DNA from: a bacterium
GTDB lineage: Bacteria > Hinthialibacterota > Hinthialibacteria > Hinthialibacterales > Hinthialibacteraceae
NCBI GenBank assembly: GCA_016125385.1
Contig: WGLV01000032.1
Coordinates: forward strand, 1-64,000
DNA: 64,000 nucleotides
Direction of reading: 5' to 3'
Shown: positions 52,714-55,775 of the stretch, piece by piece
How the letters are laid out: the number at the start of each line of letters is the position of its first letter
Numbering within the stretch: the first letter of the stretch is position 1
Translations under genes and position numbers: made by a program
The notes under the pieces: generated by a model
What the model was told of the DNA's origin: nothing
Databases searched by the model: none
What the model saw: only the letters and a program-made list of their open reading frames with translations

Positions 52714-53043
52714 ATGAACGATGATCGCATTCATATTCCCCCCGCGCAGGTTGGCGGCATTGGCCCCCAGCCCGCGCAGCCCTCATCCAAAGGCCCCAGC
52801 CCGATTGATGGCGCCTTTCAGGAAAAACTGGTTGAGGCCATGGGGAAAGTCAGTTCCGAAGTCGAAAAAATCCAGAAGGCGTCGCCGGCCAATGTTGAAG
52901 AACTCGACTCCTTGATGGATGCGGCGAAAAGCCTGTACAGCGATACCATGCAGGCTCACCAGCTGATGCAGTCGCTGATGAGCCAGCTGGGCGAGATTAA
53001 CGCCAAAATGACGCCGCCCGATTCCGATACCGGCGAGTCGTAA
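52714..53043 (+). CDS. Unassigned 109-aa flagellar operon protein between FlgC and FliE
   Basis: 109 residues with CAGGTAAAAAACG before the ATG. The N-terminal ~35 residues are Pro/Gly/Gln-rich and likely disordered; the rest is one long helix pair (DGAFQEKLVEAMGKVSSEVEKI and LDSLMDAAKSLYSDTMQAHQLM). It is not FliE, which is encoded next. In type III secretion operons a small helical inner-rod protein (SctI/PrgJ) has a similar size and pattern, so a role as an extra rod or export-rod part is possible; this is inference. Confidence 0.62.
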   Translation: MNDDRIHIPPAQVGGIGPQPAQPSSKGPSPIDGAFQEKLVEAMGKVSSEVEKIQKASPANVEELDSLMDAAKSLYSDTMQAHQLMQSLMSQLGEINAKMTPPDSDTGES

Positions 53044-53071: not shown

Positions 53072-53392
53072 ATGGCTGACCCGTTTGACCAGATGCCCGT
53101 CGGACCTTCAGGCCCCACGCCCCGCACCGAAGGGTGGCAGAGCGTGTCCGTGCCCGAACCCGTCCCTCCGGGCGGCTCGTTCGTCGACATGCTCAAGAGC
53201 TCGATTAACGAGGTCAACAACATGCAATGGTCTGCGGGCGACAAGGTCACCAAGCTGGTCACGGGCGAAATCGGCAGCGTGCATGAGGTCATGATCGCCA
53301 CCGAAGAAGCCAGCGTCGCCTTCAACCTGCTCCTGCAGGTCCGCAACCAGTTGATGAAGGCGTGGAGCGAATTAAAACGAACGCCGGTCTGA
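53072..53392 (+). CDS. fliE: Flagellar hook-basal body complex protein FliE
   Basis: 106 residues. The C-terminal half (SFVDMLKSSINEVNNMQWSAG, then VHEVMIATEEASVAFNLLLQVRNQLMKAW) matches FliE, which links the MS ring to the rod. The N-terminal ~30 residues are a Pro-rich extension. GAGAGAG precedes the ATG. Its stop lies in the loop of a short inverted repeat (ACGCCGG/CCGGCGT, 53381-53400), a weak terminator candidate. A 375-bp gap then separates it from the next gene. Confidence 0.9.
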   Translation: MADPFDQMPVGPSGPTPRTEGWQSVSVPEPVPPGGSFVDMLKSSINEVNNMQWSAGDKVTKLVTGEIGSVHEVMIATEEASVAFNLLLQVRNQLMKAWSELKRTPV

Positions 53393-53767
53393 TCCGGCGT
53401 CAACGTATAGTTTTACCTGTTTGAATTTATTTATTTTTTTGACTGAGCTGTTTCGTGAATCGCGCCATGAAACGCGGTTCCAGGGTTTGAGGGACATACC
53501 GCATAATGGACGGAACGAACCTCCGCGTTCGTTCCCGCACACGCGCCTGTATTTCGCGCGCCCTCAATCCCTGTCGTCACATTCTCGAAGATGACCCAAC
53601 GGAGCGGTCTCCATGCTGATGTCCCGTATGGACCTCGGTTGATTCGCCCAATAGCATCAGTCCTGCGTACTTTTCTTCAAATGAAGACGAGCCGGGGGGC
53701 GAGAAAATGAAATCTGTTTGGTTTTGTCGTGGATCGAATGACAAAAAAATGGATGAAGGAGCGCATG
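53393..53767. other. Non-coding gap in the flagellar operon with a strong stem-loop
   Basis: 375 bp, unusually long for this compact operon. No plausible gene lies in it on either strand. A perfect 9-bp hairpin (GGAACGAAC-CTCCGC-GTTCGTTCC, 53512-53535) lacks a T run, so it is more likely a regulatory structure or binding site than a terminator. An A/T-rich stretch (53421-53443) follows fliE. It may carry a promoter or a leader for the FliF-like small gene, but I found no consensus element. Confidence 0.55.
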
Positions 53768-54106
53768 ATGTCCAGATCCAAAACAGACGTCCTTTCGTAC
53801 GTACTATGGGCCATTCCATTCGTCGCCGGATTGTTGATGGCCCTTATTCTCCATGCGCCCGACTCTGAAACGGTCAGCGGCTCCGTTACTTCGCAGGCCC
53901 GCGAAATCGCCGCCTCCGGCTCGGTCATCAGCGAGAAAACATATACGGCAACGTCTCGCCTGCGGGGCGTCTCCAAAACGCCAGGAGTAGCCTCCAATGT
54001 ACAGGAGACGGGCATCGGCGTTGAAACCAGTACAACGCGAGCCGATGTCAAAGAAACGATCGTCAACAAAAAATATCCCTTGAATAATACCAGGGGCGCC
54101 AAATAG
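53768..54106 (+). CDS. Small membrane protein carrying a FliF beta-collar-like segment
   Basis: 112 residues from ATG 53768, which has AAGGAG exactly 6 bases before it; the GTG at 53729 and ATG at 53765 are less good. Layout: short basic N-terminus, one transmembrane helix (residues 8-28: VLSYVLWAIPFVAGLLMALIL), a Ser/Ala-rich linker, then residues 54-104, which align to FliF residues 290-340 with no gaps and 30 of 51 identities (shared ISEKTYT, PGV.SNVQ.TGIG.ET.TT, ETI.N..YP). In FliF this segment belongs to the region expected to form the MS-ring beta-collar. No ring-building or FliG-binding part is present. It lies 67 bp before fliF. It may insert into, cap or regulate the MS ring. A decayed fliF copy is less likely, since the start site and membrane helix are intact. 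Confidence 0.85.
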   Translation: MSRSKTDVLSYVLWAIPFVAGLLMALILHAPDSETVSGSVTSQAREIAASGSVISEKTYTATSRLRGVSKTPGVASNVQETGIGVETSTTRADVKETIVNKKYPLNNTRGAK

Positions 54107-54173: not shown

Positions 54174-55775
54174 ATGAACGAGTTCATTCAGCAATTGCGC
54201 GAACAACTGGCGCGCATGTGGGAGCAGCTGTCGATTCAGCAGAAGGTGATCTTCGTCGCCATCCCCGTCTTGCTCATTATCACCATGGGCATCTCGGTCT
54301 ATTACGTCAGCCGTCCCAAACTGGTGACCCTCCTCTCCAGTAGCGACGCCGGCCAGTTGAGCGAGGTCACTCAGTACCTCGATTCCAAAAACGTCCAATA
54401 CAAGTTATCCGACGATGGCCGTTCCATCTTGGTTGATTCCGAAGTGAAAAGCAAAACCGCGATCGACCTCGCCGGTCAGGGCCTCATCGGCTTTGACGCC
54501 GGCGCGGGCTTTGAACTGTTCGACAAAGTCAATCTCGGCATGACCGACAAACAGTTCGATGTCCAGTACCGCCGCGTCATTCAAAACATGATGGCCGAAA
54601 CCATCGTTGAGGGCGCCCGGATCGATCGCGCCACGGTCACGATTAACCCGGGGCGGCAGGGGTTGTTTGAACGCGACAAGATCGATCCCAGCGCGTCCGT
54701 CAAAGTTGTGGCGCGCCGCGATCTCGATCCGGAAGAAGTGAAGGGAATCCAGAATCTCGTCGCCGCCTCGTGGCCGGGCCTCAAACCCCGCAGCGTCACG
54801 GTGAGCGACAGCCGCAACCGCACTATCAGCGAAGAAACCGATGTCGAGCCCGGCGTGGCCGAAGCCAGCCGACAGTTCCAGGTGCAGGCCACCGTTGAAA
54901 ATTACATCAAGAACAAACTTGAAGCCCAGCTGATGAATTACGTCGGGCCCGATAGTTATGAAGTCACAGTGAACGCCGTGCTTGATTGGGAACAGGAAAA
55001 ACAGAAAAAGATCGAAATCGAAAATCAGTCTCCCGCGCCCATCAGTGAAAAAACCTATACCGAATCGACCAAACAGCAGGGCATCGCGGGACCGCCCGGC
55101 GTGTCTTCCAACGTGCAGGACACCGGCATCGGCGCTGAAACCCAGACCACGGGCACCGATATTGAAGAAACCATCACCAATACCAACTATCCGTGGTCTG
55201 AAACCCTTCGCGAAAAATCGCAGGGCGCCATTCAGGAATTAAAAGTACTGATCTCTATCGATCAGGTTGAACAGGCTGATGGAACCTACGCCGATCGCGA
55301 TCCCGCCGTTATTACCCAGTGGGAAGAAGGGCTCCGACTCGCGGCGGGGCTTCCCGCGACGCCTCAGCCCGGCGAGCCGATCAGCCTGCGCATCGTTCAG
55401 GTGCCGTTCGACCGCTCGCTGGAACAGGCCATGTCGCGCCAGCAGTTCTGGGAATCGATGGGCGCCGGCTTCCGCACCGTTCTTCCGCTCCTCCTGCTGT
55501 TGGCGGTTGGATATCTCGCTTACCTGTTCTTCCAGCGCGCCTTCGCTCCTGCGGAGATCGAAGAAGAAGAGATGGAAGAAGAGGTTCCGATCGAACCGGT
55601 TACCGAGGCTCGCGAGCTGACCTTGCAGCAACTGGGGCTGGCTGAATTCGGCGATATCGCCAACCTGCCGGCTGAAGAACAACGCCGTCTCAAGATGCAG
55701 GAACACGTCATCAACTACGCCGCCGAAAAACCTGAAGAAGTCGCGGCGATCATCAAGGCATGGCTGGCCAGCTAA
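54174..55775 (+). CDS. fliF: Flagellar MS-ring protein FliF
   Basis: 533 residues, family length, with GAGGAGAACCAGG before the ATG. It forms the membrane ring on which the flagellum is built. N-terminal membrane helix (IFVAIPVLLIITMGISVYYV), then ring-building domains (LLSSSDAGQLSEVTQYLDSKNV; NPGRQGLFERDKIDPSASVKV). The beta-collar segment (about 290-340) is the one copied by the upstream small protein. A second membrane helix (FRTVLPLLLLLAVGYLAYLFF) is followed by a Glu-rich stretch and the FliG-binding C-terminal helix (RRLKMQEHVINYAAEKPEEVAAIIKAWL). All parts appear intact. Confidence 0.97.
   Translation: MNEFIQQLREQLARMWEQLSIQQKVIFVAIPVLLIITMGISVYYVSRPKLVTLLSSSDAGQLSEVTQYLDSKNVQYKLSDDGRSILVDSEVKSKTAIDLAGQGLIGFDAGAGFELFDKVNLGMTDKQFDVQYRRVIQNMMAETIVEGARIDRATVTINPGRQGLFERDKIDPSASVKVVARRDLDPEEVKGIQNLVAASWPGLKPRSVTVSDSRNRTISEETDVEPGVAEASRQFQVQATVENYIKNKLEAQLMNYVGPDSYEVTVNAVLDWEQEKQKKIEIENQSPAPISEKTYTESTKQQGIAGPPGVSSNVQDTGIGAETQTTGTDIEETITNTNYPWSETLREKSQGAIQELKVLISIDQVEQADGTYADRDPAVITQWEEGLRLAAGLPATPQPGEPISLRIVQVPFDRSLEQAMSRQQFWESMGAGFRTVLPLLLLLAVGYLAYLFFQRAFAPAEIEEEEMEEEVPIEPVTEARELTLQQLGLAEFGDIANLPAEEQRRLKMQEHVINYAAEKPEEVAAIIKAWLAS

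Follow-up and report, generated by a model that had tools for sequence, protein, structure and literature searches.

In known MS rings, FliF alone makes sub-rings of differing symmetry (23/11 and 34 in Salmonella), and the hairpins of the Salmonella protein build a collar barrel of 68 strands (PMC8092281). In Salmonella FliF, contacts with FlgB, a protein of the rod, have been reported for residues of the upper collar (R294, S295, Q297, N365 and E367), and contacts with FliE for residues at the base (E276, T278, E280, R370, I372 and H374) (PMC11481574). The nearest small membrane proteins known at the flagellar base are the FlgV proteins, described in Campylobacterota as proteins of about 104 to 118 aa (PMC10655999) and, as a family, in spirochaetes and others, the spirochaete type having a cytoplasmic tail (PMC11607428). 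In SpoIIIAG, a ring protein of the RBM family, the RBM likewise carries an insert (PMC4768692). The literature that we searched held no description of a collar-only relative of FliF.

Here we analyze a gene from a window of 64,000 nucleotides (the whole stretch of DNA under study). An initial annotation had drawn attention to this gene, here called X, as one that lies just before fliF and copies a segment of it. We find that X encodes a predicted single-pass membrane protein of 112 aa with a FliF collar hairpin, and that detached pieces of FliF form a set found throughout the order, with X among them, a membership which that annotation had missed.

Results

X occupies positions 53768 to 54106 (+ strand), between fliE (53072 to 53392, +; PF02049, 1e-21) and fliF (54174 to 55775, +). 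The latter starts 67 bases downstream of X and encodes the only full FliF of this genome, an intact protein of 533 aa (PF01514, 3.3e-42; PF08345, 1.1e-16). The membrane helix and ribosome-binding site that had been claimed for X are both present: a Shine-Dalgarno-like AAGGAG (53756 to 53761, +), read directly, stands 6 nt 5′ of the ATG, and a single hydrophobic peak yields one helix at residues 12 to 30 (53801 to 53857, +; VLWAIPFVAGLLMALILHA), with the charge putting the N terminus inside. An AlphaFold2 model of X placed the helix at residues 6 to 28 (pLDDT of about 90); made from a single sequence, it gave the periplasmic part no fold and is uninformative beyond the helix. A linker for which no similarity was found (residues 31 to 53; 53858 to 53926, +) leads to the collar copy (residues 54 to 104; 53927 to 54079, +), which is the equivalent of the β3-loop-β4 of FliF, residues 290 to 340 (55041 to 55193, +). 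Farther upstream, between flgC and fliE, the window holds a 109-aa open reading frame (ORF) at 52714 to 53043 with no convincing Pfam or NCBIfam match, and several relatives have similar-sized ORFs at the same place.

The copy itself was borne out in full. Residues 54 to 104 of X align without gaps to FliF residues 290 to 340, with 30 of 51 positions identical, and BLASTP returned 31/55 identities (E = 3e-19). The local BLOSUM62 score of 170, set against a best of 56 among 1,000 shuffles, together with the BLASTP result leads us to reject chance similarity. At the DNA level, 106 of 153 positions are identical (37, 42 and 27 of 51 at the three successive codon positions). The remainder of FliF is, as had been stated, absent from X. 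Ungapped and local alignments covered FliF residues 290 to 344 only; X had no match in Pfam, none near the cutoff in NCBIfam, and none in a sequence search of the PDB. Of the collar, the upper hairpin alone is present: X lacks the YscJ_FliF domain (RBM1-RBM2; no Pfam match or alignment), RBM3 and the lower collar strands, as well as the second membrane helix and the FliG-binding tail, the last of which is separately encoded in this genome (G000:C51).

To which part of FliF this segment corresponds can be judged from an AlphaFold2 model of the window's FliF, built from nine sequences (mean pLDDT of 70). The model has strands at residues 276 to 282, 288 to 300, 327 to 338 and 341 to 347, around a disordered loop, and in it the copied residues 290 to 340 form one structural unit, the strand-loop-strand of the upper collar hairpin. 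A profile of these FliFs matches Salmonella FliF, and the copied stretch aligns to the Salmonella collar, in agreement with the original assignment of the segment to that structure. The positions equivalent to the FlgB contacts would lie inside the copied stretch and those equivalent to the FliE contacts outside it, as far as an alignment that is loose in this region can place them.

For comparison, we used nine genomes of the order (Ca. Hinthialibacterota), six of them from the window's family (G000, the window's genome, to G005). Short ORFs with a membrane helix occupy the fliE-fliF gap in 9/9 genomes, most with recognizable FliF parts, and X belongs with them by its location and by its LWxIP-type helix. 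The pattern, LW(A/S/L)IP..(T)W..L, recurs at fliE-fliF in G000, G001, G002, G004 and G005, and a related one occurs in G003. Alignment and tblastn place the helix of X with the other family mini-proteins, the statistics for X itself being weak (E of about 9e-4 to 2e-3 against an 82-aa protein of G005). The periplasmic part varies, comprising the collar, RBM1, RBM1 plus RBM2, or nothing. Close relatives do have homologues of X, for which we looked specifically: collar copies are found in three of the six family genomes, belonging to three genera. In G001, two overlapping genes encode a 213-aa protein (helix, RBM1 and RBM2; PF01514, 4.5e-7) and an 88-aa protein consisting of a helix and the collar hairpin (FliF residues about 285 to 335), the nearest counterpart of X. 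G005 has, besides its 82-aa helix protein, a 203-aa protein in which TM1-RBM1 is joined directly to the collar hairpin (FliF residues 284 to 338) and which is 62 to 76% identical to its own FliF. The remaining genomes have no collar copy: the gap encodes a helix plus RBM1 in G002, a helix plus a remnant in G003, a helix only in G004, and a helix plus part of RBM1 in the second family (G006 to G008). All three collar copies have lost a glycine that is invariant in FliF (G306), which is within chance.

In another family of the class, proteins of 192 to 223 aa are encoded upstream of fliF in G010, G012 and G013 (L024, L026 and L025, respectively). Those of G010 and G012 are RBM1-RBM2-like (PF01514, 6e-11 to 4e-4), that of G013 has no Pfam match, and G009 and G011 lack such an upstream protein. 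Some of these proteins have an apparently cleavable signal. At L020, L021 and L022, the 364 bases from the mini-gene to fliF are free of indels and highly conserved across three species, with no clear gene assigned. A collar profile run against 118 genomes of another phylum, where it is weak, matched 11 FliF collars, each of them within a full-length frame; in a third phylum (three genomes), it gave zero matches of any kind and so was uninformative.

Under a codon model of the 51-codon collar, with branch lengths near saturation, the best tree joins each copy to the FliF encoded in the same genome, and trees grouping the copies fell short of it by 7.8 to about 70 log units. We therefore reject a single ancestral collar copy shared without conversion; because each copy pairs with its own FliF, the copies were made separately or were converted by the neighboring fliF. 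A near-identical stretch of FliF is nevertheless found in all three, despite three different protein contexts. With one rate class, the dN/dS of the three copies is 0.225, which does not differ from that of the FliF collars (0.183), and fixing it at 1 gives a 2ΔlnL of 12.9, a value reached in 0/90 simulated nulls. For X alone, over 51 codons, the result is marginal (ω of 0.30, 2ΔlnL of about 4, P of about 0.05; 0/13 null simulations reached the observed value). Thus, the copies taken jointly reject a dN/dS near 1, raised at the outset as a sign of decay, and X by itself does so only marginally. Likewise, tblastn of all FliFs and mini-proteins against the gaps, in every frame, found no further FliF parts, and so the frameshifted upstream relics that had been suggested as another sign are rejected. 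An 85-aa mini-protein with a helix and partial RBM1, kept at this location by G006 to G008 (three species of another genus of the order), has a dN/dS of 0.19 to 0.24 in three comparisons. Given the low dN/dS of the collar copies, the absence of relics, the constraint on this 85-aa protein and the recurrence of the same stretch in three contexts, the sequences favor retained function over decay for the collar copies. The description of X as a gene and not a leftover holds: the dN/dS of the group is below 1, its frame is unbroken, and homologues lie beside fliF in two other genera.

Parts of the ring are also encoded at other loci. In 9/9 genomes of the order, a profile built on the C-terminal tails of FliF picked out a small stand-alone ORF, away from fliF, that carries the FliG-binding tail, usually behind one membrane helix. 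Its neighbors in all six family genomes are a YhhQ-like transporter gene on one side and purF on the other, the window's genome having it at G000:C51:44052-44360 (L072, L083). A second full FliG is encoded in G000:C13 and G001:C59, and ORFs for the FliG C-terminal domain (open frames of 166 to 205 aa) occur in the window's genome (G000:C57:9183-9482; L086:5971-6498) and in G001, G004, G005, G006 and G007; G002 and G003 have one FliG match each, and G003 has no fliG after fliF. Every genome has one FlhA and several flagellins, which indicates that a flagellar system is present and that the detached FliF and FliG pieces most likely serve one such system. The flagellins of G000 to G009 (four to nine matches each) are mostly open frames of about 800 to 950 aa, longer than usual. 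We also noted a cluster of MotA/ExbB-like and FliM genes in G004 (C120; L081:2804-6561) and one of FliG and FliM genes in G005 (C82; L082:3907-8274). In both, no FliF was seen, and the FliF tail motif is carried by a protein that seems to have several hydrophobic stretches; these could possibly be second switch complexes that do without FliF.

Discussion

We lean toward the view that X is a retained accessory protein of the flagellar base that supplies an extra periplasmic collar hairpin, probably at the MS-ring collar or to FlgB. Made from a piece of fliF and then kept, X would be anchored in the inner membrane by its helix, with its C terminus in the periplasm, as charge and helix prediction suggest. 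The linker of about 23 residues would hold out an additional upper collar hairpin (β3-loop-β4), which might take a place in the collar barrel next to the hairpins of FliF; alternatively, in the course of assembly it might present FlgB, a protein of the rod, with the same surface as FliF does. The membrane helix presumably packs at the ring. If X is expressed, as we infer that it is, docking at the collar could influence ring assembly or stoichiometry. The initial annotation had proposed that X might contribute extra strands, fix the stoichiometry of the ring or compete with FliF. Only half of the family has a collar copy, and so it is not essential in this group. In the 88-aa protein of G001, the linker from helix to hairpin is only about 7 residues, and the hairpin may miss the level of the collar unless the N terminus is a cleaved signal.

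Other explanations deserve consideration. It may be that the helix is the working part, that X belongs to an old fliE-fliF membrane family (LWxIP) that packs on the helices of FliF, and that the periplasmic part is minor cargo. The recurrence of the LW(A/S/L)IP..(T)W..L helix alongside a changing periplasmic part is what one would expect of such a family, and FlgV, in Helicobacter, is somewhat alike in that its predicted contact with FliF is made by membrane helices (PMC10655999). Minor cargo is difficult to reconcile, however, with purifying selection on the collar copies near the level of FliF itself and with the same hairpin in three lineages, and we regard this explanation as rather unlikely. 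Somewhat less likely still is that X is a decaying duplicate, generated by repeated tandem duplication of fliF in which the upstream copy erodes to temporarily open fragments. Every collar copy indeed has its own FliF as its closest sequence, different genomes hold different fragments, and the G005 copy is both young and large (62 to 76% identical to its own FliF). However, X has kept 51 codons without a stop or indel despite 47 nucleotide differences from fliF, the dN/dS of the copies is 0.23 (0/90 nulls), and the gaps hold no other relics; furthermore, the boundaries are near-identical in three lineages, and the mini-protein of the other genus has a dN/dS of about 0.2. Decay of X after duplication is therefore unlikely.

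Finally, X might act as a competitor or assembly chaperone, its hairpin binding transiently to the collar strands of FliF or to FlgB and being absent from the finished ring. The position of X between fliE and fliF would suit such a role, as would the fact that the copied stretch covers the positions aligned with the FlgB contacts (PMC11481574); sequence alone fits permanent incorporation equally, and we consider a purely transient role improbable.

Viewed across the order, the detached FliF pieces suggest a ring that is built or tuned with separate modules. One speculative, and to us doubtful, reading is that these bacteria build the MS/C ring from a kit, in which an intact FliF is joined by detached membrane-anchored modules [TM1-RBM1(-RBM2), TM-collar hairpin and TM2-FliG-binding tail] as separate subunits, so that inner ring, collar and switch ring could each have its symmetry set independently. 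A lineage that has separate collar, ring-building and FliG-binding membrane proteins as well would be a natural experiment on how symmetry mismatch is set, and would supply small parts with which collar assembly and rod docking could be tested.

Like the FlgV proteins, X is a small membrane protein linked to the flagellar base. However, FlgV has two helices and is encoded at other loci, whereas X has one helix and a FliF-derived periplasmic hairpin and precedes fliF; on helix number and locus we reject X as a FlgV member. In SctJ/PrgK and SpoIIIAG, parts of RBM-family rings are likewise separate proteins, but these have an RBM, whereas X is an insert without the ring domain. Compared with FliF itself (PF01514 and PF08345, with the collar inserted in RBM3), X lacks RBM1, RBM2, RBM3, the lower collar strands, TM2 and the FliG-binding tail, although its hairpin is homologous to residues 290 to 340 and is expected on the same side of the membrane. 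A known reduced relative of FliF is the sole FliF where it occurs and keeps RBM-type domains; X, in contrast, accompanies an intact FliF.
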